A DNA stretch of 64,000 nucleotides from Lentisphaerae bacterium GWF2_49_21 (GTDB lineage Bacteria; Verrucomicrobiota; Lentisphaeria; Victivallales; GWF2-50-93): positions 1 through 64,000 of the forward strand of contig MHBH01000068.1 in the NCBI GenBank assembly GCA_001804805.1, read 5' to 3'. Each line of letters opens with the position of its first letter. Position 1 is the first letter of the stretch. The position numbers and the translations under genes were made by a program. The notes beneath the pieces were generated by a model. It made no database searches. It was not told where the DNA came from and saw only the letters and a list, made by a program, of their open reading frames with translations. Below, piece after piece: positions 13,575-47,198 of this stretch.

Positions 13575-13849
13575 TAAGAAGGATCAACTCTCACAGGAGA
13601 TGGTGCTGAGCCTTGGCAATAATGCCATAAGACTGAACGTTGTAAAATGAGTCAGCCATAGAATCGCATGTCACAATATGTTAAATAATATCAAATTCAA
13701 ACCTCTTGTCAGAACTGTCAGCATAGTATACAATATAAAGCGTAAGGCAATTGTCAATAATATTACGTTCCAGCATCTTGCAGGGACTTTTCTATTGCAG
13801 TATAGCTTAAATAAGGAGGAATTTAAAGATGAAAACGAATAAGTTCACC
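13550..13849 (+). repeat. Right arm of ~300-bp inverted repeat (partner 75-371)
   Basis: The arm contains the 3' end of the IS5-type remnant, a 230-base non-coding leader including the class A element (13664-13710), the strong site AAGGAGG, and the first codons of the pilin gene at 13829. Its partner on the minus strand has about 14 substitutions or small indels, so the duplication is not recent or has been under relaxed selection. Confidence 0.9.
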
Positions 13850-14494
13850 CTTATCGAACTCCTGGTGGTAATTGCCATTATTTCGATCCTTGCAGCCCTG
13901 CTTCTGCCCGCCCTCAGGTTAGCAAAGGAGTCGGCAAAGACCATCAGCTGCACAAACAACCTGAAGCAAATATCTATTGCGACGTTCAATTATAGCACCG
14001 ACTATGAAGATCATGTCATGTATATTGGAAATCCTCAGACAGGAGACAACTACATGAGGGGCTTCTACCCGTATATGTCCAGCGAATCGCAACCGGCAAA
14101 TAAATATATTCCTTCCCTGAACTGCCCGTCAAACCTCAGCACGCCTTCCAACAGCCGCAATTACTCTACCTATGGATTGAACGCACCTTTTGGAGGCTAT
14201 GCCGGTTCAGCCAGCAAAGACTGGTGCCTATTCGCGCAGCTTAGACGCCCTTCGGTAACTCCGCTTTTTGGCGACAGCGGCGGCAATACGAGTGGCGCTT
14301 ACATGTGGAGCGACTCTGTCAACGCTTCGAACATAGAACAATATCAAAAACACATTTTCCGTCATGTAAAACGCCTTGGTGTGGGCGTCTTTTCCCGATG
14401 CGATGGCCACGTGGATACGGTCAAATATCAGGATGCGTACAGCGGGGAGGCGCCTTTGTCAAGCATTTTGACATGGAGACCAAGACATTACTAA
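13829..14494 (+). CDS. Prepilin-type (pseudopilin) protein
   Basis: This 221-residue protein begins [20 protein letters not shown], the prepilin peptidase motif and assembly helix. [16 protein letters not shown] follows, and a C-terminal [17 protein letters not shown] (H-X-DGH type). AAGGAGG sits 8 bases before the ATG, the strongest ribosome site of any pilin gene here. The protein is related to those at 1410 and 22353 over its whole length, but the region [17 protein letters not shown] differs from their [17 protein letters not shown]. The protein is expected in the inner membrane or on the surface after processing. No pilus assembly genes are in the window. Confidence 0.85.
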
Positions 14495-15199: not shown

Positions 15200-15273
15200 A
15201 GAAAACCAGCAACTATGATAAGATTGGAAAAACTAGGAACATTGTGCCATTGAAAGGAAAATCCTCAAAGTAA
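15172..15273 (+). pseudogene. 3' scar of a GntR/LacI-type transcriptional regulator
   Basis: In the frame overlapping the pilin tail, the DNA encodes MGETAVELLKKTSNYDKIGK then TRNIVPLKGKSSK and stop. The intact regulator at 39798-40889 ends MGETAVELLKKMINDDKIRK then LRNVVPLKG. These are therefore the last 33 codons of a close relative with the rest deleted. Its stop overlaps the heparinase start (TAATG), implying that the ancestral regulator gene was translationally coupled to the polysaccharide lyase gene. Confidence 0.8.
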
Positions 15274-17249
15274 TGAACTCTAAAATGGAAGTTTGCCGGC
15301 GTTCGCGTATAAATGAAGCCGCTGACAGGTACAGGAAGATAGATCCTGATGTCAAATATCTGCGCTCCAAGGCGGAGAAAACAGATATTGCCAATGTTTC
15401 ACGGCGTTTTTTTTCATCTCCGGAGGAGATAGCCGCCAAGGCTGCGATTGTCGCAAAGGACTTTCCTGAAGAAGCAATTGCCTTGAAAAGCACTTGCAAA
15501 GACATACTTGACCACAGGTTCAATCTTCTCGGATATGGGCCTGCAGGCTTTGGATTTCCGATAAAATGGCACTGCGACTATCGCAGTTCGAAGGAATGGG
15601 CAGGAGATGTCAATTACCTTGCATTGGGACAAAAGATGTTCGACGTCATTGTCGACAAGAAGGCCGGCTTGGAAGTGAAAGTCCCCTGGGATCTTTCGAA
15701 CATGATGTGGCTGCCCTCCCTCGCCTGCTCCTATCACCTGACAGGAAACAGGAAATATTTCGAAGCTTTCAAGAATGACATGTCCGACTGGATTGTGAAA
15801 AATCCATATCCGCTTGGAGTAAACTGGATCTGTCCGATGAATATCGCCATAAGGGCCATGAACATGATCGTCGGCCTGACAGCCCTTTATCCTGCGCTGG
15901 AGAAGGATTTCCTGCTGGAAGCCATTTGCAGCCTGTTCCAGCATGGAATTGCGATCATGGCATATCCCGAGCTGGGGAATAACGACAAGAGGAACAACCA
16001 TTATCTGACCGATCTGGCGGGGCTATACTTCCTCGGACATTTCTTCAGGGACACGGAGGAAGGTGTGGAATGGCTGGATTTTTCCACAAAGGAGCTCGAG
16101 CTGGAATTAGAATATCAATTCTATCCAGACGGCGTCAACTTCGAGGAGTCGACTAGCTATCACAGGCTTTCCTCAGAGATGCTTCTGCTCTGTGCGATAC
16201 TCGCAAGGGACAACGGGAAAGGATTTTCAAAGGATTTCACTGACCGGCTACACAAAAGCCTTAACTTCACCAGGGACATCCTTCAGGCGGATGGCAGGAT
16301 TCCTATGTTCGGAGACAATGACAATGGAAGGATGCTGCAATTCCATGGGTTTTCCAAGACTGCTTCTGCCGACCACAGGCACATCCTTGCGGTCGGAGGC
16401 GAGTTCTTCAATGATGATTCACTGCGTTTCCCTGGCAAAAATGCTGCGGCAGAAGCAGTATGGCTGCTTGGCAGTTTCAAATCCCCTTCCAGACCTGCAG
16501 ACAAGACCGGTCCCATCCTGAAAAAATATCCGGACTCAGGTTATTTCATCATAGAGGACAAAAAGACGAAGATTGTGATCAGGAATGCCAGAATAAATCC
16601 ATCATGCGGCGGAGGCCATGCGCACTGCGACCAGATGAGTTTTACATTGAGTTCCGGCTTGCAGGAGATAATCGTCGATCCAGGCACATATCTCTATTCA
16701 AGCAACTTCGAAGAACGGAACTGTTTCCGCTCGGTCGAATTTCATAACACGATCCAGCTCGGTTCCGAGCCGATGCATGAATACGACAGAAATACATTTG
16801 GCGGCCTATGGTGGATGAAGGATCTTGCCGATGCAGAGACAACAGAATTCAGGACCGAAGGGAAGAAGATTGTCTTTGAAGGGAAGATTCATTCATATGA
16901 GAAGAACTGCGGATACCTTGTCTGCCGTAAAATGACATACGAGCATGGCGTCTTGTCTCTTGTCGATTCTGCAATCCCGGTCGGGAAGAACATGAAAGAC
17001 AAATGTCCGTCATGCAGCAGATTCCTCCTCGCACCAGGTCTTGTTCCCTCGGTCGAAGAAAAGGGAATTGTGATGATAAGGAAAGGCTCGAGAATAATCT
17101 GTTTCTTTGAAATCCTTTCCGAGACCTGCAATACAAGAATCAACGATCTGTGGTTTGCTCCCGGATATGGAACAAAAATCCCAGCCAAGCAGATCGGAAT
17201 CGAATGGACGCCGGAAATAAATCTTAAATTAAAAATATTATTAGGATGA
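15273..17249 (+). CDS. Heparinase II/III family polysaccharide lyase
   Basis: This 658-residue protein has an all-alpha toroid in the first half (WLPSLACSYHLTGNRKYFEA, CPMNIAIRAMNMIVGL, NNHYLTDLAGLYFLGHFF) and a beta-sandwich C-terminal half. YPDGVNFEESTSYHRLSSEM near residue 290 and GGGHAHCDQMSFTLSSG near 450 hold the Asn/Tyr/His residues expected for lysis of uronic-acid polysaccharides in this superfamily. No signal peptide is present, so it may act on imported oligosaccharides. The start ATG overlaps the stop of the regulator scar, and the gene ends overlapping the GH36 start (ATGA), a tightly coupled pair. The exact PL family (PL12, 15, 17, 21 or 33-like) cannot be decided by eye. Confidence 0.85.
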   Translation: MNSKMEVCRRSRINEAADRYRKIDPDVKYLRSKAEKTDIANVSRRFFSSPEEIAAKAAIVAKDFPEEAIALKSTCKDILDHRFNLLGYGPAGFGFPIKWHCDYRSSKEWAGDVNYLALGQKMFDVIVDKKAGLEVKVPWDLSNMMWLPSLACSYHLTGNRKYFEAFKNDMSDWIVKNPYPLGVNWICPMNIAIRAMNMIVGLTALYPALEKDFLLEAICSLFQHGIAIMAYPELGNNDKRNNHYLTDLAGLYFLGHFFRDTEEGVEWLDFSTKELELELEYQFYPDGVNFEESTSYHRLSSEMLLLCAILARDNGKGFSKDFTDRLHKSLNFTRDILQADGRIPMFGDNDNGRMLQFHGFSKTASADHRHILAVGGEFFNDDSLRFPGKNAAAEAVWLLGSFKSPSRPADKTGPILKKYPDSGYFIIEDKKTKIVIRNARINPSCGGGHAHCDQMSFTLSSGLQEIIVDPGTYLYSSNFEERNCFRSVEFHNTIQLGSEPMHEYDRNTFGGLWWMKDLADAETTEFRTEGKKIVFEGKIHSYEKNCGYLVCRKMTYEHGVLSLVDSAIPVGKNMKDKCPSCSRFLLAPGLVPSVEEKGIVMIRKGSRIICFFEILSETCNTRINDLWFAPGYGTKIPAKQIGIEWTPEINLKLKILLG

Positions 17250-19255
17250 CTCCAATGACATCAAGTATAAGGAAAATAAACAATTCGCTGAAACTGTCGA
17301 ACGGACTGGTCGAAGCAGTGTTCAGCATTGACAGGTGCTTCAAGCTGGACAAATTCATTGATCTGGGGACAGGAAAGACGGTATGTACGCAGAAGGAGCA
17401 TATATTGGCGTTCGACAGGGAGAAGGAGGATCTTGCCGTCAAGGGTTCTGTGAAATTCGCAAAAACCTCGATCCGCAGGATTGACGATGCGTATCAGAAC
17501 ACAGGAATGGAGGTGGTACTCTTCTTCAGGATGTTAAAATCCGGATTATCCATTGAAAGGCATGTATTCATCTATGATGGTGCACCGGCGATAAGGATTT
17601 ACGATGTTTACAGCTCGGAAAAGGATCTTGCGGGCCTTTACAACTCGGACATTCTGAGTATTGAATTCAAAATGCCCTTCGAGGCAAGATGCGTGGAATT
17701 CTTTACCTGCACCGACCAGTCCAACTACAGGCTTATCGAGAAGAAGGCGGAGTTCAAGAACAGAGCTGGATTCTTCATAACTGATTCAGGAGCTTTCCTG
17801 TACAAGGAAGGACCGATGCCGGACAGCCAGCCGATAAAGGGCGAATATGATTTCATTTACCGTAAGGATTCCAGAATTGTTTCGGTCACAGGGCTAGGCT
17901 TCGAAAAGATCCGGAAAGGTGAGAAGCGAAGGGCGAACGGAATAGTCATTGGGCTCACGGAAGACAACAGTTCTTTGGGAGGGCTAAAGAAATATCAGCA
18001 GGCAAGGTATAAGATAAATTACGGGAATGACATTGAATATCTCGCAAACTCCTGGCCTGCGTTCCATCTTGACGTTACTGAAAAGAAGATCCTGAAGGAA
18101 ATTGAGGCCGCTTCAAGATGCGGAATCAAAACCGTTTTCATCGACGATGGATGGTTTGATACATTCATGGGAGAGATCGACAAGGAGAAATTCCCGCATG
18201 GCTTTGACAGGATTTCCAAGTTCGCCGCATCAAAGGGAATCAATGTCGGGCTCTGGATGAATCCGTTAGGCCTTGACATAAAGGACAAGAACGCGAAGGA
18301 ATGGGACGGTGCCGAGGCGCACGACACTTTTGTCGAGGGCAACAGGTGGAACTGGGTCGCACGCACAAACGATTTCAGATATGCCGAATACCTGGGTTCT
18401 GAGGGCGTGAGAGCATACTGCGCCATGGATATCATGGACAAAGGATATTTCGAGCATATCAGGGACAAAATCCTATCTCTCTACAGGAGATATGGCATAA
18501 GAAGGTACAAGTTCGACCTTTATCAGCTTCATCTTTTCGATACTCTGATCGGAGATCCGAACCGGCATTACGAGAAATATCGCGAGCTGCTACAAGTTTT
18601 GAAGAAAGATATTCCAGGTCTTGTGATTTCCATGGATATCACGAGAAGGAACCGTCCGTGTTTCGATTTCGGAATGGACTTCGGACGCCTGTTCATGGAG
18701 AACAGGGGAAGGAATCTGAAGGACCATCGTTACTATCATCCTTATGTGAGCTTGAGGAACCTCTGGTACACCGCGAAATATTTCCCGGCGCAGAAGATGG
18801 AACTGGAAATGATGCCGCAGATAGACGACTACCCGATTGAATACGTCCTGTCGACAACGATATTCGCAAATCCGCTTTATTGGGGAAGCCTTGCTGATCT
18901 TCCTGAAGAAAAAGTAAAACGCATGAAGTTATTCATTGACACATTAAAACCGTACAAGGAGGAAATCATGAAGGGGCTTGTTTTCCCTGTCGGCGAAATG
19001 CCTGAAAAGGGGAACTGGTCTGGCTTCATATCCATGCGGAGTGAGACAAAAGGCTATCTTGCAGTCTACCGCAATGGTTCAAAGTCAGGTAAATACAGGC
19101 TGAACACGAAGCTTTTGAGTTCCAGAAAATATATTTTCAAAGATGTTTTCAATTCAGGCAGCTTTATCATCCTGGATCCAGGCAAGATGGAATTCGCAAT
19201 TGAAGAAAAGTTTGGTTTCAGGTTGTACCGCATGGAGAAGGCAAATGATTCTTGA
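17246..19255 (+). CDS. Glycoside hydrolase family 36-type alpha-galactosidase
   Basis: This 669-residue cytoplasmic enzyme has no signal peptide. The N-terminal beta-supersandwich is followed from about residue 270 by a TIM barrel with IKTVFIDDGWFDTFMGEIDK and INVGLWMNPLGLD. GIRRYKFDLYQLHLFDTLIG gives Asp about 423, the expected nucleophile in the KxD motif. VISMDITRRNRPCFDFGMDF supplies the acid/base region. It likely removes terminal alpha-linked galactose (or a related sugar such as N-acetylgalactosamine). It overlaps the heparinase gene by 4 bases, so both are made from one transcript. A truncated relative of its N-terminus survives at 40895. Confidence 0.85.
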   Translation: MTPMTSSIRKINNSLKLSNGLVEAVFSIDRCFKLDKFIDLGTGKTVCTQKEHILAFDREKEDLAVKGSVKFAKTSIRRIDDAYQNTGMEVVLFFRMLKSGLSIERHVFIYDGAPAIRIYDVYSSEKDLAGLYNSDILSIEFKMPFEARCVEFFTCTDQSNYRLIEKKAEFKNRAGFFITDSGAFLYKEGPMPDSQPIKGEYDFIYRKDSRIVSVTGLGFEKIRKGEKRRANGIVIGLTEDNSSLGGLKKYQQARYKINYGNDIEYLANSWPAFHLDVTEKKILKEIEAASRCGIKTVFIDDGWFDTFMGEIDKEKFPHGFDRISKFAASKGINVGLWMNPLGLDIKDKNAKEWDGAEAHDTFVEGNRWNWVARTNDFRYAEYLGSEGVRAYCAMDIMDKGYFEHIRDKILSLYRRYGIRRYKFDLYQLHLFDTLIGDPNRHYEKYRELLQVLKKDIPGLVISMDITRRNRPCFDFGMDFGRLFMENRGRNLKDHRYYHPYVSLRNLWYTAKYFPAQKMELEMMPQIDDYPIEYVLSTTIFANPLYWGSLADLPEEKVKRMKLFIDTLKPYKEEIMKGLVFPVGEMPEKGNWSGFISMRSETKGYLAVYRNGSKSGKYRLNTKLLSSRKYIFKDVFNSGSFIILDPGKMEFAIEEKFGFRLYRMEKANDS

Positions 19256-22352: not shown

Positions 22353-23009
22353 ATGAAAAAGTTCACATTGATAGAACTTCTGATTGTGATTGCGATAATC
22401 GCAATTCTCGCGGCGCTTCTTTTGCCGGCCCTGAAAAACGCGAAGGAACAGGCCAAGCTGATCAGCTGCATGAGCAATCTAAAGCAGATATATCTTGGAA
22501 CGCTCAACTACAGCATCGACTATGAGGAGCATGTCATGTATATTGGAGATCCGGCCACAAACAACTACATGAAAGGTTTCTACTCCTATGTTGCCAGTGA
22601 ATCACATCCTTCCAACAAATATGTCCCTGTCCTAAACTGCCCTTCAAACAAGGAAAATCCATCGAACAATTATCTTTATTCGACATACGGGCTCAACACC
22701 ATATTCGGCGACTATTCCGGTGCCGGTGGAAGGGATTACTGCAAGTTCTCCCAACTTACAAGACCTTCGGTGACACCGCTGTTCGGGGACAAGCAGGGGA
22801 CGACCTCCGGGACGATAACCTACAGCGGAGACATAACAAACAGTTCCAGGGCTCGGCATATATTCCGCCACGGGGGAGCGAGCTCATATGCCCAGATGAA
22901 GGCAAATTATCTTTTTTGTGACGGGCACACGCTCACATATCCGTATCCTGAAGCTTTTACAGGCAGTGCGCCACTTACGGATTACGACACTTGGCGGCCA
23001 CGGTATTAA
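22353..23009 (+). CDS. Prepilin-type (pseudopilin, H-X-DGH) protein
   Basis: This 218-residue protein begins [59 protein letters not shown] and [21 protein letters not shown] match the protein at 1410 almost throughout. It is a member of the expanded Lentisphaerota/Planctomycetota pseudopilin family, processed by prepilin peptidase. It lies between a GH-A glycosidase and two secreted proteins (23047, 23840), all in one direction with gaps under 50 bases, so it is probably cotranscribed with them. Confidence 0.85.
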
Positions 23010-27991: not shown

Positions 27992-28037
27992 TCTGTCCGA
28001 AGTCAATCATTTGGAAGCATGAAAAAAAGAAGTGGCA

Positions 28038-28700
28038 ATGAAAAAGAAAGAAAAAGGAGAATCCTTGTCATTCACCCTTATCGAACTATTGGTTGTCATA
28101 GCCATCATCGCGATTCTGATTGCAATGCTTTTGCCGGCCCTAAAAGCGGCAAAAGACAAGGCAAAAGAGGTGTTATGCATGAGCAACATCAAGCAATTAT
28201 GCTACGCCTCCTGTCTCTATGCCGGCGACAACAGCGGCTGGTTGCCGGTAGCAGGAGGGGCTTATCCATGGAGGAGTTTATATTTGATCGAATATGTATA
28301 TCCCGGCAATCCAAATAATTGGTATGGGAAAAACGCCGGAATCTTCCTGTGCCCTCTTTTCGACCGCTGGGATGTGAACAAGGTTTATCATTCAGGCTAT
28401 GGCTGGAATTTTTATTATCTTGGCCATTGGGCTCCTGATCATGTGAATCTGCTCACGGTAAAAATACCTGTTGAAACAATAGAACTCGGCGATGCGACTG
28501 ATTGGTATACAACCGGAGACTGGCAACTCGGATTTATTTACTCGCCCAGTTCGACCACTCCTGTTCCCCCCGTTGGAAATCGTCACAGCAAGGGGATAAA
28601 TTTCGGATGGGTCGACGGGCATGCTTCATGGATGTCGCAGAAGTCCATCATGCAGGGAGTCAATGGCAATTTGGATTACTATTACAAGGTCAGCAAATAG
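28038..28700 (+). CDS. Prepilin-type (pseudopilin) protein
   Basis: This 220-residue protein starts with a basic stretch (MKKKEKGES), then [20 protein letters not shown] with the Glu5-type helix and [20 protein letters not shown]. It ends with [19 protein letters not shown]. The globular domain is more divergent than those at 1410 and 22353. A GTG six bases upstream is an alternative start. The next gene, a carbohydrate esterase, starts 38 bases later. Confidence 0.82.
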
Positions 28701-30203: not shown

Positions 30204-30911
30204 ATGAAAAAGAATGGAAAAGGAGATTCTATTCCATTCACTATGATTGAGTTACCCGTAGTGAATTGGGGAAAGGCGCAAGTCTTCACCCTTATCGAAC
30301 TATTGGTTGTAATCGCAATCATAGCTATTCTTGCAGCTCTCCTTCTTCCCGCTCTTCAGACCGCGAAGGAAATGGGCAGACGCACTGTGTGCATCAACAA
30401 CCTCAAGCAGTTCGGCATAGCCACACATTCCTACGCTGAGGACAACAAGGATTTCCTCCCCGGCCGCGGTGCTACTTATCCCAAAATCGCATTCGTGGTA
30501 AATGTCGCCTACTGGGATGATGGTAGCGACAGGGCTACAGCCCAGCACGGGGAATATAATCCTGATTATATAGCCAGCAAGGACACTTATTACTGTCCCA
30601 GTGTCTATAATGAACTCTACACTGTTAAAAAATGGAAGGATTTGAGCAGCTACGGCTATTATATACCATTTCCCCTACAGCCGCCAAATCAGAAATACAG
30701 GCGTATTCAAGAGGTTCTGTCCGGATATACTCCCTCTAGCCAGTTTCTGATTTCAGATCTTTTAAACTGGGATATAACTGTAAAGTCATGGCATAATCCG
30801 AAAGGTTATTGCGTGTTGTTCTATGATGGGCATGTCAATTTCATATCTGATAAATTCTATCAAACTACTTCCGAAACATCATCAAGAAGTTTATTCAAGA
30901 ACAATTACTGA
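30204..30911 (+). CDS. Prepilin-type (pseudopilin) protein with tandem processing motifs
   Basis: This is a 235-residue protein. An N-terminal motif [17 protein letters not shown] is followed by a second, [20 protein letters not shown], so two FTxIEL recognition sites lie 17 residues apart, as in the protein at 1410. [20 protein letters not shown] and the C-terminal [19 protein letters not shown] give the H-X-DGH signature. GGGAGGGGC ribosome site 3-8 bases before the ATG. It is followed 30 bases later by the SIS-domain gene. Confidence 0.83.
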
Positions 30912-30941: not shown

Positions 30942-32735
30942 ATGCAGACTGCAGAAGATAAAGCCAGTCATTTCATAGAAAATGAAACTGAATTCCATCT
31001 CGGGGAACTGCTGACTGAGCAGTCTCATCAGAAAACAAGAGGTTTCTCTACAACGATTATTTCCAGTACTGCCGACGGAGTCCGTATGCTCCGCGAAGTG
31101 GACGATGAACTGCCGCCGATCGCTGACAAGGTTTTTCACGGAAAAGAATTCTCCCGGCTTGTCAGCTCGATACACGGATGTCTTGCTGGCAACCGGCGGA
31201 TATTCCTGTCCGGTTGCGGTGCTACAGGCCGCCTGTGCATCCTGCTCGAAACGGTATGGCGGAGGTTCTGGAAAAACGGGAAGTCTCTTCATCCGGATAG
31301 CTTCAGGAGAATTTCAGATCGCGAGGGAAACGTCTTCAGCATAATGTCCGCCGGAGACCATGCGCTGATCCGCTCTGTTGAAGGATTTGAAGATTATGCG
31401 GAATTCGGGAGTCGCCAGATCATGGAGGCCGGAGTTGGAGCCGGAGACGTCGTGGTGGCCATCTCTGAAGGAGGTGAAACTTCATCTGTGATCGGGACGG
31501 CAAGGCATGGACTGGATGTTGGCGCCGAAGTATTCTTTGTTTTCAACAATCCCTCTGAGATATTGTCCAGACGGGTTAAAAGATCCAGGGAGCTCATAAA
31601 TGACAAGCGGGTCACCGTACTCGATCTGGCATCGGGCCCCATGGCTATTGCAGGTTCAACCCGCATGCAGGCGACCACGATGGAGCTTCTGGCCGTCGGA
31701 ACTGCTCTTGAACTCGGTCTTGAACGTTACCTGCAGGATACGATTGGATCAAAGGAACTCGATCTGCTTAGTTTTAATGATATGGATACTGTTGCATATT
31801 CAAGACATTTCTCAGGTATTTTAAATTCCCTCCGAAGTCCTGAAGCGATTACTGCAGCGGCCGGAATGATTGAATTCGAGGAGTCCGTATATCATCAGAA
31901 GGGACTTGTCACATATTTCGCCGACGAATATCAGCTGGACATTCTTACCGACACTACCGAAAGAGCCCCGACGTTCCGTCTTCCCCCGTTCCGTAAGTGC
32001 GATGATCGCATTTCTCCTCCCTCCTGGGCTTTTGTGAAAAATCCTATCCATCCGACAACGGAGGCTTGGGAACGGCTGCTTCACCGCCCCCCCCGCGGAC
32101 TTGACTGGACAAAGGAAACATTCAGGGAGATGGGAGCTTCGCAAGAATTTCTCAAGCAGTCGCCAAATCTCTGTGTCAGCGAGATACTGAAATACCAGAT
32201 TGGAAACGAGGACGACGTTTTCCGTCATTATCCGGAGTCGAACGCTGCCATCCTTGTGATGGCCGGAGAGGAAGATCCATCTGGCAGCAGTCCTCTGCTC
32301 TCAGGATTTACAAAACATTCAGCGAAATATCGGAAGAAGGCCGGTTTGTTTATCGGCATGGACAAGGCTCCTTCAGACTTCATAGGTATTTCATTTACCA
32401 TACCATGCCGGTTGCCCAAGTCTCCTTTGGATATCTGGACACGGCTGGCAGTGAAAATGCTGCTGAACACTGTTTCCACCGGAACCTGTGCACGTCTTGG
32501 CAGGGTTCAAGGAAACTGGATGGCATTTGTTGAAACAAGCAACAAAAAACTGATTGATCGCGCGAGCAGGCTGATTTCGGAACTTGCGCAGGTTCCATAC
32601 GAAAAGGCCTGCCTTGCGCTATTTGAGTCACTTGAACAAATTGAGCGCAACAGAAAACCTGGAGAGATTCCACCAAGCCCTGTACAGGTGTCGCTGGAAC
32701 GGATCAGGCACAGACAAGCAAAAAGCAAAACATGA
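30942..32735 (+). CDS. Double-SIS-domain protein, MurQ / glucokinase-regulatory-protein-like
   Basis: This 597-residue cytoplasmic protein has a first SIS domain at about 85-260 with FLSGCGATGRLCILL, VVVAISEGGETSSVIG and GPMAIAGSTRMQATTMEL. This is the sugar-phosphate-binding signature of N-acetylmuramate 6-phosphate etherases (MurQ). MurQ itself is about 300 residues. The second half (about 330-590) looks like another SIS-type domain with MLLNTVSTGTCARLGRVQGN, giving the size of the animal glucokinase regulatory protein. Role: binding or cleaving a phosphorylated sugar, possibly a lactyl- or carboxyethyl-substituted one. Its end overlaps the next gene by 4 bases (ATGA), so the two products are made together. 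Confidence 0.75.
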   Translation: MQTAEDKASHFIENETEFHLGELLTEQSHQKTRGFSTTIISSTADGVRMLREVDDELPPIADKVFHGKEFSRLVSSIHGCLAGNRRIFLSGCGATGRLCILLETVWRRFWKNGKSLHPDSFRRISDREGNVFSIMSAGDHALIRSVEGFEDYAEFGSRQIMEAGVGAGDVVVAISEGGETSSVIGTARHGLDVGAEVFFVFNNPSEILSRRVKRSRELINDKRVTVLDLASGPMAIAGSTRMQATTMELLAVGTALELGLERYLQDTIGSKELDLLSFNDMDTVAYSRHFSGILNSLRSPEAITAAAGMIEFEESVYHQKGLVTYFADEYQLDILTDTTERAPTFRLPPFRKCDDRISPPSWAFVKNPIHPTTEAWERLLHRPPRGLDWTKETFREMGASQEFLKQSPNLCVSEILKYQIGNEDDVFRHYPESNAAILVMAGEEDPSGSSPLLSGFTKHSAKYRKKAGLFIGMDKAPSDFIGISFTIPCRLPKSPLDIWTRLAVKMLLNTVSTGTCARLGRVQGNWMAFVETSNKKLIDRASRLISELAQVPYEKACLALFESLEQIERNRKPGEIPPSPVQVSLERIRHRQAKSKT

Positions 32736-35700
32736 AATTTAGAACAGGCATGTTTTATGAACCCGGATTCATGGACAAGGAGTTCTTCTTCGGAAAGCAT
32801 GGATCCGGACTAAAGCAGATATACCCGGATTTTTTTCTGGCTGACAGCTCTTTCCTGTCAACAAACCGGCTTGATCAGCATTTTGATGTCCTGATTTTCC
32901 CTTATGGAGGATATTTCCCCCATGACAGCTGGCCGAAGATCCTTGATTTCATCAGAAAGGGAAAGGACATCATCACTCTGGGAACCGGACCCTTTAGCTC
33001 TCCCTGCAGGAAGGAATGCGGGAAATGGGAAGTGAATGATCCTTTTGATTTTGGAGACCGCTGGCGCTGGTCGTTCACATCAATTTCAACCGGCAAACTT
33101 GGTTTGAGCTTCTGGGAAGTCCCGGACAAGTCGGTTCTTTCCAATGGAAATTATTCCATCAACATTGAACCTGGATTGGCAAAATATTTCCATGGAAAGA
33201 CGCAGTTCGGATGCAAACGTTTCACGGGCACGCTCAATCCGCTGTATACCGGCCGGAGGAAAGTTGTCGGACGATCTCCAGAAGACAGCTCAACCGCTTA
33301 TGACATGGATGAATATCTTGCAATAGTCGAACCCGGTTTTTCCCGGGAGATAAACGGCAGGTTCGTCCAGGCAGGTTTCCTCCCGGATGAGAACTGGACT
33401 ATGAAGGATTTCAAGTGTTTTATCAAAGGCATGATTGATGTCCTCAAATCTGATGAAGATGACAGGCTTGCCTATGGAATGGAGCTGTCAGGATATGTCA
33501 CCAGGAAAGATTCCGGATTGAGATGTTCCTGCTGGCAAAGAGGCGGAGGCAGGGAAATGCCCTCCCTGAATTTGACGGTGAAGAATGAGAAAGGCACTAC
33601 GCTGTCATCTTTCAGTATAGACTGCAAAAATGAAATGTCATTGCCTGTCGAATCACTTCCGGAAGGAATTTACCATGCGGAGCTTCACGAAAAGAACAAG
33701 AAGCTTGTGTCATCCCAGTTCTCAGTCCTGCCGCCACGACCTGGACTTCCACAGGTCAAAGTATGCCGTAGGAACGGTTATGCTGCCTTAGATGTCGACG
33801 GTCAGATTATACCGGCGCTGGCATATGCGTTCAACCCATACGACAGGGCACTGGATGATCTTTCCAGGAAGTTCTCCGAGAGGAATATCAACATCCATCA
33901 CTTCCTATACCCTTTGGTCTTCGGATGGGAGGATGAGAGTAGGTTTGACTGGACCAGTTTTGACAGACTTGCCGAACGAATCCTGAAAAACGATCCTCAA
34001 GGCCTGCTCTATCCCCGTGTTTTCCTACAGACCCCGGCATGGTGGGATGCAGACAACCAGGATGAAATGAAGGTTTACAGGAACGGAAGCAACTTCAAGG
34101 CGAACTATGTCTTCAACGATGATCCTCTGCATGCAAACAGCAAGTATTCAGTGCGAGGATTCAACCGCAGGATGTACGGCGCGTCCTGGCAGTCCGAAAA
34201 ATGGCGCAGGGACTTGTGCAATGTCCTGAAAAACTTCATCGAACATGTACGTAAAAGCGTATACAGGGGAAACTTCTTCGGCTGTTTCATCTGCTGCGGC
34301 CAATACGGCGAATGGGTGTCTTTCAGCAATGACAATGGATGCAGCTGGGAGGATTTGAGCAGGCCGGCGTTGCGGGATTTCCGTTCCTGGCTGAAAAAGC
34401 AATATGGAGGAGACGATTCGAAACGCCGAAATAAATGGGAATGTCTCGGAAATATTTCCTCTGACGAGATCAGGGTTCCTGCCACCGGAACAGTCAAAGC
34501 AGGGAACGACCTTCATAATTTCCTCGATCCCGACAATGCAATGAAGCTGGCAAAGGAAATCCCGCCTGCACAGATAGGGAAGGCTGTTCCCCCAAATTTC
34601 GTGAGACGGCACATTTCGAAATATGGGATATTCCGGGATCCCAACCAGAGCTGGGATACGATTGAATATTACAGGTACTGGCAGGATTCCTTCGTTGAAA
34701 CTGTCTCCTGCTTTGCGAATGCTGTCAAGGATGCATCCGACGGCAGGTCCGCAGTGGGCATGTTCATCGGCTATCTGATGCGGGAATATATGCAGGACCT
34801 AGACAGCGAATATCACCAGAACTCATTCCTCAAGATACTGAAGGGTGTCAGAAGTATAGACATCGCAACTTCACCTTATCATTATTACAGGCGATTCAAC
34901 ACGGCTGAAGCCGATGCGAATCTGAGGACCGTTCCAGGTTCGATAAACCTATCCGACAAGATATTTATCAGTGAGAACGACCAGAGGACTTGCGTGGGTG
35001 AAATCGGCGAATACTCGCACATGCTCACAGGAGAGGCGGATCTTGCGGAGACGCTTGAGGCGATCAAGAGGAATTTCGTCATCTGCATGTGCCACGGCAC
35101 CGGACTATGGTGGTACGATTTCGGACGCGGCTGGTATGACCATCCGGACATCATGAAAACAATAGGCAGATGCGCCACTATCTACAGGAAACTCATCAGC
35201 GAGCCTAATCCCTGCCCTGCCATCCACCTGTTCGACGTCTTGAACATCATTTATTCTACCAAAGCCTATGATTACATTTCATCGTGCAGCATGATCTGCC
35301 ACTCAAATACAACCATACAGGTGCAGGAGCATTTCAACCGGATAGGATTGCCATGGGAAGTTTACTTCCTGGAAGACCTGCCGAGTGCCCCACCTTCAAA
35401 AGCGTATCTTTTCCTGAATACATGCGCCATTGATGACGAAGACCGGAAATTTATTGACAAGAACCTGAAGAAGGACGGAAATCTCCTGATATGGCTTTAT
35501 GCTCCGGGTCTATACAGAAATGATGTTCCAAATCCGGAAAACTCCTCAGAACTGACCGGTATCAAACTTGACTGGTCCCTGGAGAAAAAGGAGATTGATG
35601 TGAAAATTACCGACTTCACTCATCCTATTACCCGTGGACTCTCCAATGAGGATTTAAGACAGTTCACATCCGTTTATGAACCCGGGAAGGAATCTCTCTC

Positions 35701-36124
35701 AGCAATCAATGCCGCAGCCCCGGAATTCTTCTGCGTCGACAAGGACGCGACAATACTGGGTGTCAACAGCCATTCCGGACGTCCTGCTTTTGCCGTGAAG
35801 GAATTCGACAGCTGGAAAAGCGTCTATATCTCCTGCCCCCTGGTTCCCCACAATATAATGCGCAGAATACTAGTATGGGGCGGATTAAAGCCAGTACTTG
35901 ATTCGGATGATGCGCTATACACAAACAGTGACATCATTGGAATCCGCGCAAAAGAGGCAGGCATCCGGAATATTTCGCTCAGGGAGGATTTCGAGATTGC
36001 GGATCTTTATGGTTCCGAAAAATACAAATCCAAGAATGGAAAAGCTCGTATAAATCTGAAACGCGGTGAAACTTTTATCGGAAGAATTTCCAGCGCAGAG
36101 GACGGTATAAAAAGGAAATTATGA
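32732..36124 (+). CDS. Putative GH42-like multidomain glycosidase, family not recognised
   Basis: This 1130-residue protein has no signal peptide. Residues 1-110 look gatase-like (VLIFPYGGYFPHDSWPKILD, ITLGTGPF). A beta-sandwich spans about 245-340, then a TIM barrel from about 355 (YAFNPYDRALDDLS, LLYPRVFLQTPAWWD). GCFICCGQYGEWVSF (Glu about 528) and KIFISENDQRTCVGEIG (Glu about 747) are candidate acid/base and nucleophile. A second gatase-like region lies near 890-1050 (KNLKKDGNLLIWLYAPGLYR), as in GH42 beta-galactosidases with trimerisation domains. Coupled by overlap to the SIS-domain gene, it may release a sugar that the SIS protein recognises after phosphorylation. Confidence 0.65.
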   Translation: MKFRTGMFYEPGFMDKEFFFGKHGSGLKQIYPDFFLADSSFLSTNRLDQHFDVLIFPYGGYFPHDSWPKILDFIRKGKDIITLGTGPFSSPCRKECGKWEVNDPFDFGDRWRWSFTSISTGKLGLSFWEVPDKSVLSNGNYSINIEPGLAKYFHGKTQFGCKRFTGTLNPLYTGRRKVVGRSPEDSSTAYDMDEYLAIVEPGFSREINGRFVQAGFLPDENWTMKDFKCFIKGMIDVLKSDEDDRLAYGMELSGYVTRKDSGLRCSCWQRGGGREMPSLNLTVKNEKGTTLSSFSIDCKNEMSLPVESLPEGIYHAELHEKNKKLVSSQFSVLPPRPGLPQVKVCRRNGYAALDVDGQIIPALAYAFNPYDRALDDLSRKFSERNINIHHFLYPLVFGWEDESRFDWTSFDRLAERILKNDPQGLLYPRVFLQTPAWWDADNQDEMKVYRNGSNFKANYVFNDDPLHANSKYSVRGFNRRMYGASWQSEKWRRDLCNVLKNFIEHVRKSVYRGNFFGCFICCGQYGEWVSFSNDNGCSWEDLSRPALRDFRSWLKKQYGGDDSKRRNKWECLGNISSDEIRVPATGTVKAGNDLHNFLDPDNAMKLAKEIPPAQIGKAVPPNFVRRHISKYGIFRDPNQSWDTIEYYRYWQDSFVETVSCFANAVKDASDGRSAVGMFIGYLMREYMQDLDSEYHQNSFLKILKGVRSIDIATSPYHYYRRFNTAEADANLRTVPGSINLSDKIFISENDQRTCVGEIGEYSHMLTGEADLAETLEAIKRNFVICMCHGTGLWWYDFGRGWYDHPDIMKTIGRCATIYRKLISEPNPCPAIHLFDVLNIIYSTKAYDYISSCSMICHSNTTIQVQEHFNRIGLPWEVYFLEDLPSAPPSKAYLFLNTCAIDDEDRKFIDKNLKKDGNLLIWLYAPGLYRNDVPNPENSSELTGIKLDWSLEKKEIDVKITDFTHPITRGLSNEDLRQFTSVYEPGKESLSAINAAAPEFFCVDKDATILGVNSHSGRPAFAVKEFDSWKSVYISCPLVPHNIMRRILVWGGLKPVLDSDDALYTNSDIIGIRAKEAGIRNISLREDFEIADLYGSEKYKSKNGKARINLKRGETFIGRISSAEDGIKRKL

Positions 36125-36194
36125 CGAAAGCAGAAAAAACTAAAGTCGTCATACTGCTTATTGGCTGGCATTTGTGCTCCAGCAAGAATCAACT

Positions 36195-36785
36195 ATGAAT
36201 AAATTTATTGCATTGGACATAGGAAACGTGTGCCTAAAACTGAGATTCGAGAGGTGCTTCTACGCCCTCGGATGTGCTGGAGATGAAAGACATTCAGACC
36301 GGATACTCCGCCTTGCTGAAAGACTTGGAAGAGGAGAAATATCTGAATGCGAATGGATAAAATGCATGCATAGGGAAACAAGGGAACAATTTTCAGACAA
36401 GGAAATTCTTGAGAACTGGAATCTTATTCTCGGAGATGAAATTCCGGGGATGCATGAACTGTTGGGTGAAATGAGGGAGCTCGGATATGAGATCATATTC
36501 TTCTCCGATACCTCCAGCATACATATTTCACGTATCTTCGACTATCTGAAGCTGACCGATTGCGTTGCAGGAGGAATTTACAGCTATAAAGTCGGCGCTT
36601 CAAAACCTGAAAGAAAGATGTATGAGGCTTTCGAAATAAAATACGGTAGACCGTTTCTCTATTCCGACGATAGAGAGGAAAATATTGAAGCTGGCATAAG
36701 ATCAGGCTGGTTCAGCCATCTGTTCACTTCAGTTGATTTACTTAGAAAAACCTTTATGGAACGGCATGTTTCGTCCTTGATCTGA
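36195..36785 (+). CDS. HAD-superfamily hydrolase (subfamily IA, YihX-like)
   Basis: This 196-residue protein shows HAD motif I as FIALDIGNV (the D-x-G-N-V form seen in YihX-like sugar phosphatases), motif II as IIFFSDTSSIH, the Lys of motif III in KVGASKPERKMYEAF, and motif IV as YSDDREENIEAG. Length fits the subfamily. I prefer the ATG at 36195 over an upstream GTG at 36174, because residue 1 then directly precedes motif I. Likely a sugar- or nucleotide-phosphate phosphatase, 70 bases after the glycosidase gene. Confidence 0.8.
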   Translation: MNKFIALDIGNVCLKLRFERCFYALGCAGDERHSDRILRLAERLGRGEISECEWIKCMHRETREQFSDKEILENWNLILGDEIPGMHELLGEMRELGYEIIFFSDTSSIHISRIFDYLKLTDCVAGGIYSYKVGASKPERKMYEAFEIKYGRPFLYSDDREENIEAGIRSGWFSHLFTSVDLLRKTFMERHVSSLI

Positions 36786-45852: not shown

Positions 45853-47198
45853 ATGCCTTACATTCCGAATACTGATGCCGACAGGAAGGAAATGCTCGAA
45901 GCCGCAGACTGCAAAAGCATTGCCGAACTGTGGCAGAAAGCTCATATAAGGACAGCTCCCCCGGCACTTGAGAACATGCCAGCAGGAATGTCTGAATACG
46001 AAGTCACACGCCATCTCAGCTCACTGGCCTCGCAGAATGCAATACATCTCGTGAACTTTGTAGGTAGCGGATATTACGACCATCTCATTCCCGCCGCAGT
46101 CGGTACAATGGTCGGACGCTCGGAATTCTATACCGCATATACTCCGTATCAGCCCGAAGCCTCGCAGGGAACCCTTCAGGCAATATATGAATACCAGTCC
46201 GCCATATGCCGTCTGACTTCCTTGCCGATGTCGAACGCCTCCCTTTACGACGGTGGAACTGCGTTGTTCGAAGCAATCATGATGGCTGTCAGGATCACAA
46301 ACCGCCGTCAGGCCGTTATATCCGGAGCCGTATCCCCTATTTTCCGTGAAATGATCAGATGCTACAGCAGCAACCTGGATATTGAACTTATCGTCGTACC
46401 TGTCAACGATTCAAAGACCGATTCCTCGCAGAGCGCACTTGTTGACGCTGTCACTGACAAGACAGCCTGCGTAATCGTCCAATACCCGAACGTGTTCGGC
46501 ACTGTTGAAGAATGGACTGAAACAGTTGAAAGATACATGCGAAAAAAGCCATCGCCGTTTGTTCCGCCTATCCGATCGCACTTGCAATGCTGAAAACTCC
46601 AGGGGAAATGGGATTTGATATTGTAACAGGAGAAGGACAGAGTCTTGGAATTCCTCTCAGCTTCGGCGGTCCATACCTCGGATTCATGGCCGTCAAGGAA
46701 AAACTTGTCCGCAAGATGCCCGGAAGAATTGTCGGCAGGACAGTCGATCTCGACGGCAAACCCGGATTCGTCCTTACCCTCCAGGCCCGCGAACAGCATA
46801 TCCGCCGTGAGCACGCGATGTCCAACATCTGCTCTAATGAAAGTCTTTGCACGCTGACTGCCCTCGCCTATCTCACATGCATCGGAAAGGAAGGCCTTCT
46901 CCAGGTTGGAAACCTCTGCGCGGCAAAAGCGAATTTCGCAAGGGATATTCTCCTACAGATAAAAGGAATTGAGCCCGTCGGAGAAAAGGCATTCTTCAAC
47001 GAATTCGTGATAAAGCTTCCAGGAGATTCCTCTGAAATCGTCGGAAAGATGATCGACAAGGGTTTTGCCGCAGGATTCCCGCTTGGGAGATATTACAGCG
47101 ACAGGAAGAACCAGCTGCTTGTGGCCGTCACTGAAAAAAGGACCCGCGAGGAGATCAAGGCGTTTGCAAACGCAATGGAGGCAGTGCTGTGGAGCTGA
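45853..47198 (+). CDS. gcvPA: Glycine dehydrogenase (decarboxylating) subunit 1, interrupted by a -1 frameshift
   Basis: The first frame (45853-46593) begins MPYIPNTDADRKEMLEAADC and carries FVGSGYYDHLIPAAV, FYTAYTPYQPEASQGTLQ and LYDGGTALFEAIMMAVR. The family continuation VCSAYPIALAMLKTPGEMGF, GEGQSLGIPLSFGGPYLGFM and TLQAREQHIRREHA lies in the -1 frame to 47198. The join is exactly at A AAA AAG (46542-46548); shifting back one base there gives YMRKKAIAVCSAYP and a 448-residue product, the normal family length. Without a shift, translation ends 15 codons later. Whether this is programmed frameshifting, a disabling deletion or a homopolymer sequencing error cannot be told. It forms the PLP-dependent P protein with GcvPB. 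Confidence 0.85.
46542..46548 (+). other. -1 slippery heptamer A AAA AAG in gcvPA
   Basis: The 0-frame codons are CGA AAA AAG CCA, so the heptamer is in the X XXY YYZ phase used by E. coli dnaX. A tandem -1 slip gives CG AAA AAA GCC and restores the gcvPA frame. I see no strong Shine-Dalgarno-like stimulator 10-14 bases upstream and no obvious strong stem 5-9 bases downstream. Confidence 0.6.

Follow-up and report, generated by a model that had tools for sequence, protein, structure and literature searches.

The window analysed here is a stretch of 64,000 nucleotides (nt) from Lentisphaerae bacterium GWF2_49_21 (contig MHBH01000068.1), and all coordinates below are positions in it. Its proteins were searched against Pfam, NCBIfam and the Protein Data Bank (PDB), and we computed family identity, residue conservation, motif similarity to MurQ, gene linkage and gene fusion for a protein with two SIS halves that it encodes. 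Three open reading frames (ORFs) of 597, 1130 and 203 amino acids (aa) lie in a row on the plus strand, and the TGA stop codon of the SIS gene (32733-32735) overlaps the ATG of the 1130-aa gene (32732-32734) as a 4-nt ATGA. The ORFs, this overlap and a Pfam match to GKRP bear out the preliminary description of this DNA, which had reported a GKRP-sized SIS protein whose gene overlaps that of a GH42-like enzyme, with a HAD gene next. The features are as follows.

30942..32735, plus strand: double-SIS (GKRP/MurQ superfamily) protein, 597 aa, identified by its ORF, Pfam, NCBIfam and PDB matches and alignment; approximate domain boundaries (residues) SIS1 ~20-260, degenerate SIS2 ~288-503, MurQ/GKRP-type C-terminal lid ~503-560
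31212..31232, plus strand: phosphate-loop motif GCGATGR, codons 91-97 (GAGTSGR in MurQ), by alignment
31380..31394, plus strand: EGFED, codons 147-151; E150 aligns with the second glutamate of MurQ EGAED
31947..31976, plus strand: SIS2 motif TDTTERAPTF, codons 336-345; E340 is the proposed counterpart of the MurQ DASECPPTF glutamate
32541..32561, plus strand: lid motif NKKLIDR, codons 534-540 (GKRP Asn512/Lys514/Leu515/Arg518), by alignment
32732..36124, plus strand: GH42-like enzyme, 1130 aa, with the 4-nt ATGA overlap at its start; candidate catalytic residues E527 and E748
36174..36785, plus strand: HAD-like hydrolase, 203 aa, 49 nt downstream of the 1130-aa gene; weak PF00702 match, homologue in locus L043

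The 597-aa protein passed the Pfam gathering cut-off of GKRP_SIS_N (PF22645; 31.4 vs. 27 bits) and fell under the cut-offs of the MurQ models (97.1 vs. 302 bits for TIGR00274, and 117 vs. 168 bits for PRK05441). Compared with single-SIS MurQ of about 300 aa, it consists of two halves with the MurQ motifs split between them. MurQ models and MurQ chains match it at two separate places, in SIS1 and near the C-terminus, and its PDB matches are MurQ and GKRP chains, at SIS1 and the C-terminal lid, together with a weak match of phosphoheptose isomerase to SIS1. SIS1 and the lid match GKRP chains in the GKRP order, with a middle region between them, and the family profile matches MurQ across SIS1 (hhalign E = 3.6 × 10−42). 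Chance is excluded for the SIS identity because homologues with 42-50% identity over nearly the full length occur in many relatives. By these sequence comparisons the protein is a member of a distinct bacterial double-SIS family, which looks like a variant of the MurQ/GKRP superfamily in which a MurQ dimer was seemingly fused into one chain; its identification as MurQ outright was rejected, given scores under the cut-offs and a separate clade. GKRP, the glucokinase regulatory protein of animals, is known as a regulator and is a drug target, and Veiga-da-Cunha reportedly described its descent from MurQ in 2009.

The first part of SIS2 resembles MurQ residues 45-95, including DASECPPTF, in register (hhalign E = 0.0035). 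With filtered columns the match scored 28.49, whereas the best of 200 column shuffles reached 24.65 (none attained the observed score) and the reversed profile 15.97, and two unrelated profiles used as controls gave E-values of 0.34 and 0.37. Of 80 SIS-family proteins, 78 contain the pattern D..E..PT[FY], among them the three MurQ proteins of the set; the two without it are L043, which has I for T, and the fragment L075. Among 862 other proteins compared, one contains it. That SIS2 shares the DxxExxPTF catalytic motif of MurQ is a proposal that these alignments support moderately.

Residue conservation was counted in 76 aligned double-SIS proteins and compared to 18 MurQ rows. Fixed in all 76 are E147, E150, D151, E179, S239, T240, R241, E340, R341, N534, K536, L537 and R540, while T95 of the phosphate loop is found in 73 and T344 in 75. 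SIS1 keeps the MurQ phosphate loop, the ExxED glutamate and the GSTR motif, the lid keeps NxKLxxR, and both MurQ catalytic glutamate motifs are kept, one in each SIS half (E150 aligned directly, E340 via the SIS2 motif), in line with the MurQ/GKRP relationship that had been claimed for the protein; the active-site residues, whose absence combined with a pairing unique to this genome had been named as a refutation, are present. In MurQ, the second glutamate of EGAED is E114 and that of DASECPPTF is E83; in the MurQ numbering of the comparison made here, the motif glutamate (E86) lies ten residues past the phosphate-loop serine (S76).

A site shared between two SIS units is known in two relatives. 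NagS, the GlcNAc-6-phosphate (N-acetylglucosamine 6-phosphate) dehydratase of Streptomyces, is a MurQ-related SIS enzyme whose site lies at the dimer interface, where Arg64, ten residues past the phosphate-loop Ser54, comes from the adjacent monomer and is essential for activity (PMC12680351). In GKRP, the SIS-2 residues Glu348 and His351 and the lid residues Asn512/Lys514/Arg518 complete the SIS-1 sugar-phosphate site (PMC4109836). Because a second subunit or SIS domain completes the site in both NagS and GKRP, and conserved residues occur in both halves here, the sequence of the double-SIS protein looks like that of a single-chain MurQ dimer in which one composite site is left. E340 is likened to GKRP Glu348 by position only, as SIS2 could not be aligned with GKRP SIS-2. 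E103 of SIS1 (E in 72 and D in 4 of the 76), two residues ahead of the MurQ motif position, was considered as the second catalytic glutamate and dropped; E340 was preferred, given the alignment of the SIS2 motif with MurQ and the shared sites of NagS and GKRP. The region 31227-31350 contains this conserved E103 and a longer post-GRL stretch of SIS1 where MurQ has DASECPPTF; in the window protein this stretch is without DASECPPTF and runs for ~35 residues up to the IMSAGD/IIAGG segment, vs. 21 in MurQ.

The family has in common with MurQ the SIS1 core, ExxED, GSTR, a C-terminal NxKLxxR-type segment and DxxExxPTF, whereas it differs from MurQ in its tandem arrangement, in which each half has part of the motifs, in a K to Q replacement past GSTRM and in forming its own clade. 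With GKRP it shares a length of about 600 aa, the order of SIS1 and lid around a middle region, and counterparts of Glu153, Ser258/Arg259, Asn512, Lys514 and Arg518 (and of Glu348, with the positional caveat above), but it is bacterial, is gene-linked to glycosidases and possesses TDTTERxPTF in SIS2, an invariant E179 and GSTRMQ.

Gene linkage was examined in 60 related genomes, including that of the window, where gene calls are approximate and some genomes incomplete. When 38 double-SIS entries, some of them fragments, were compared with 69 domain hits for GH20C hexosaminidases, 7 pairs lay within 1 kb compared to 0.07 expected (p = 6 × 10−13 under a random-placement model); the seven pairs come from four genera (g21, g28, g31 and g32) in two families and are not all independent events. 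An eighth case is G055, in which a GH20 ORF directly adjoins the double-SIS gene with the domain hit 1.3 kb off, and a GH20 gene also adjoins it in L153 and is next but one in L152. The GH20C partners with a readable start (L043, L048, L049, L051 and L059) have no signal peptide by eye. The GH20C of Streptococcus pneumoniae was co-crystallised with N-acetylgalactosamine (GalNAc) and GlcNAc and has some bias for GalNAc (PMC11308363). An IclR-type regulator gene, recognised by sequence similarity, lies near the double-SIS gene in 9 loci; eight of the nine were scanned, and all list Pfam HTH_IclR, 6 of them past its cut-off.

In nine loci (L115-L123), the double-SIS ORF runs on into a domain of ~650-730 aa. 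The nine tails are all homologous, and all four that were scanned (L115, L117, L118 and L119) match DUF6259. At L118:5567-9445, inspection by eye shows a signal-peptide-like stretch where the double-SIS and DUF6259 parts of the reading frame join, unlike in the eight others. This locus was therefore not counted as a clear fusion, and the eight that remain all belong to family f10 and represent five genera. Other f10 genomes have an unfused double-SIS gene (e.g., L124, L125, L127 and L128), and in L130 a separate DUF6259-type gene lies two genes away. The match of the DUF6259 domain to a GH129-type alpha-N-acetylgalactosaminidase (E = 0.058) was not used as evidence. The glycosidase linkage of the family is recurrent, above all with GH20C and in the form of in-frame fusions, in keeping with the idea, already voiced in the preliminary description, that a glycosidase is coupled to a step on a phosphorylated sugar.

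Amino-sugar genes were found around the double-SIS gene of G021 (L077), in the order nagA, double-SIS, NagK-like, nagB, DapA/NanA-like, with later genes including an FGGY kinase. By our own ORF call the double-SIS gene overlaps nagA by 23 nt, and in NCBIfam nagA and nagB are past their cut-offs, with NagK under it (226 vs. 370 bits). Two further genomes have nagA and a nagB-like gene at a distance of 10.4 kb (G020) and 7.6 kb (G048) from a double-SIS gene, and the genome of the window contains nagA and nagB past the cut-offs, away from the locus.

Taken together, the residues fixed in 76 of 76 proteins, the aligned SIS2 motif, the composite sites of NagS and GKRP, the GH20C linkage, the fusions, the nag cluster and the presence of nagA and nagB in the genome lead us to favour an active MurQ-type lyase/etherase acting on an N-acetylhexosamine 6-phosphate, to which we assign a probability of roughly 0.45, over a GKRP-like sensor. 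In such an enzyme, SIS1 and the lid would bind the phosphate and the ring of the hexosamine 6-phosphate, SIS1 would provide one catalytic glutamate (E150), and SIS2 would provide the second (E340), taking the role of the partner subunit in related dimers. A MurQ-type elimination at C2-C3 would then remove an ether substituent (e.g., lactyl) or water, and the product would feed the NagA/NagB route. The sugar that becomes the substrate would be released by the cytosolic glycosidase encoded nearby, here GH42-like and in the relatives GH20C, DUF6259 or others; we infer this chemistry, the substrate, the order of the steps and likewise the role of the HAD protein.

Several observations weigh against this assignment. 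The SIS2 profile, covering ~200 residues, had no match in the PDB, GKRP included, at E-values up to 10; the HH-suite probability of the SIS2-MurQ match is just 9-12%, which is why we grade this likeness as moderate and not strong; and AlphaFold2, run with two sequences, gave no usable model (mean predicted local distance difference test score, pLDDT, 34.4). The K of MurQ GSTR(M/L)K (18 of 18 MurQ) is Q in 76 of 76 double-SIS proteins, and the position of the invariant E179 is mostly occupied by R, G or S in MurQ. Conserved glutamates are no proof of catalysis, because GKRP, a regulator, has glutamates in its site too. These are Glu153 and Glu348 (PMC4109836). The single nagA adjacency among the 77 loci might be due to chance (~0.3 expected by a hand estimate), and the only BadF-domain gene past the cut-off in the genome of the window is a 716-aa frame that may not be a sugar kinase. 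Furthermore, the glycosidase neighbours are diverse (GH31-like, GH109, DUF4838 and GH130), and immediate neighbours include unrelated genes such as RNase II-like, PP2C-like, GTPase, PhoU-like and a Cys/Met-type pyridoxal phosphate (PLP) enzyme. Among 92 neighbours tallied, no domain is commoner than GH20, with 8 occurrences, and the NCBIfam models recorded are just those for Cys/Met-type PLP enzymes, in 3 members, and 20 of the 77 loci have no same-strand neighbour within 200 bp (scripted count). Finally, double-SIS and MurQ co-occur in the phylum as expected for independent genes: both were found in 12 genomes vs. 11.5 expected (Fisher p = 0.85, 288 genomes), which also led us to reject the idea that the double-SIS form replaces MurQ.

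The foremost alternative, which we consider unlikely, is that the protein is a catalytically dead, GKRP-like sugar-phosphate sensor that responds to hexose phosphate levels by binding and controlling an enzyme, either the coupled glycosidase or a sugar kinase. The GKRP_SIS_N match past its cut-off, the GKRP order of SIS1 and lid around the middle region and the counterparts of the GKRP ligand residues all suit such a sensor, and varied glycosidase partners and direct fusions would suit the sensing of a common metabolite; E147, E150, E340 and E179, invariant in all 76 proteins, are by contrast more typical of catalysis in our judgement, and GKRP is without the E103 of the family. No kinase gene adjoins the double-SIS gene in the window, and among neighbours scanned singly kinase genes were found only in L077 (the NagK-like and FGGY genes), the tally of 92 neighbours representing the best 25 of 119 families. 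The regulator paired with an enzyme that had been suggested for this locus survives in the form of this sensor, with the GKRP_SIS_N match in its favour and the lack of an adjoining kinase in the window against it.

Less likely still is a NagS-like dehydratase that removes water from GlcNAc-6-phosphate or a similar amino-sugar phosphate, leaving an unsaturated compound that might be a signal or a toxic intermediate. NagS resembles the double-SIS protein in being MurQ-related, in acting on amino-sugar phosphates and in having a site common to two SIS units (PMC12680351), and the neighbouring GH20C and nag genes suggest GlcNAc or GalNAc as the sugar; however, NagS is a single-SIS homodimer, and the double-SIS protein has the MurQ-type E340 and E147 where NagS has Arg64 and Ser91 (positions matched by spacing). 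An ordinary double-length MurNAc-6-phosphate (N-acetylmuramic acid 6-phosphate) etherase of peptidoglycan recycling, with incidental glycosidase neighbours, would fit the MurQ-like SIS1, the NagA, NagK-like and NagB genes of L077 and an Amidase_3 (N-acetylmuramoyl-L-alanine amidase) gene adjoining the double-SIS gene in L058, but is similarly improbable given the 12 genomes that have MurQ as well, a GH20C linkage far over chance, the fixed substitutions relative to MurQ and the separate clade.

A wider proposition, which we regard as rather improbable, can also be framed: a widespread bacterial family of single-chain MurQ pseudo-dimers, equivalent in architecture to vertebrate GKRP yet active, would work in series with, or sometimes fused to, cytosolic glycosidases, would thereby open a new way to catabolise N-acetylhexosamines that are 3-O-substituted or modified in some other manner, and would represent the protein type from which GKRP could have arisen. 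The family offers a tractable test of how an etherase-type dimer becomes one chain and of whether the enzyme or the sensor came first, and it provides a lead to the function of many unannotated genes of polysaccharide-degrading bacteria. A search of open papers found no title or abstract concerning this double-SIS family.

The 1130-aa partner by itself has no match at E-values of up to 0.01 in Pfam and NCBIfam or, as a single sequence, of up to 1 in the PDB, unlike the GH42 beta-galactosidases whose catalytic barrel region it shares by family profile. The GH42-like label given to it earlier is right nonetheless, because the profile of its 21-member family matches GH42 beta-galactosidase structures (best 3tts, E = 2.4 × 10−17) and 13 of the 21 members, though not the window protein, match PF02449. 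E527 and E748, nearly invariant in the family and paired as in GH42 enzymes, are candidates for the acid/base and the nucleophile, and no signal peptide is evident by eye. A conserved SIS-GH42-HAD operon, by contrast, was rejected, and with it the SIS-GH42 pair as a conserved unit: a full-length orthologue of the partner was found in one of the 59 other relatives (G020; 39% identity, E = 6.6 × 10−258), 10.8 kb from a double-SIS gene on a contig that also contains nagA and a nagB-like gene, and, among the matches listed, it alone covers the first 313 residues. More distant members of the superfamily are encoded to either side of the double-SIS gene in L064, beside it in L068 and after the fused gene in L115, to which we give little weight because these genomes contain many such members. 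The likeness of the 203-aa protein to HAD hydrolases is weak (PF00702, 25.8 bits vs. a cut-off of 26.4), and its homologue (40% over 182 aa) adjoins a double-SIS gene in L043 only among the loci examined.

A double-SIS match was found in 33 of the 60 relatives, counting the window's genome, and in none of three same-genus and four same-family genomes (77-93% complete). Because these closest genomes are without a match, transfer may have brought the gene into this genome, or the surrounding lineages may have lost it. In a sample of 288 genomes of the phylum, the family profile, which also recognises single-SIS MurQ, found a match in 123; the double-SIS form is present in 81 (own cut at E = 1 × 10−100) and MurQ proper in 41 (own cut at about ≥180 bits, i.e., at least that score, to TIGR00274). 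In a quick tree of 53 rows (34 of the 76 double-SIS proteins, 18 of the 23 MurQ extracted and one GKRP; no bootstrap), double-SIS and MurQ each fall on one side of a branch, with Shimodaira-Hasegawa approximate likelihood ratio (SH-aLRT) values of 98 and 96, whereas the single GKRP row sits on a very long branch (3.6) and cannot be placed; the phylogeny that had been proposed as a check separates the family from MurQ, with GKRP unplaced. One relative, the sole find of one contig scan, occurs in an Armatimonadetes metagenome-assembled genome (L021), and the family is therefore probably not confined to Verrucomicrobiota; among viral contigs, 14 candidate stretches contained no relative of the double-SIS protein. 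In several families of the phylum, MurQ forms the C-terminus of frames of 585-718 aa (L155-L157, L159, L161-L164, L166, L168, L169, L171 and L173), behind ~300-430 extra residues that are probably a fused domain.

The surrounding genes of the window encode an acetyl-xylan-esterase-like protein and a GH2 enzyme (both with signal peptides by eye), pilin-like proteins, a GHL6-type glycosidase, an SDR protein and a GntR/LacI-type regulator, and from this content we read the locus as one of polysaccharide use. Five pilin-like proteins with a common signature (1410-2120, 13829-14494, 22353-23009, 28032-28700 and 30204-30911) are scattered among the glycan-use genes, and similar proteins occur near double-SIS genes in the relatives (9 loci, the window counted). 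A second 4-nt gene overlap is present at 17246, between the ORFs 15273-17249 and 17246-19255. A gene resembling the first subunit of the glycine cleavage P-protein (by eye; 45853-47198) is split between the ORFs 45853-46593 and 46587-47198, which overlap and thus point to a frameshift or an assembly error.

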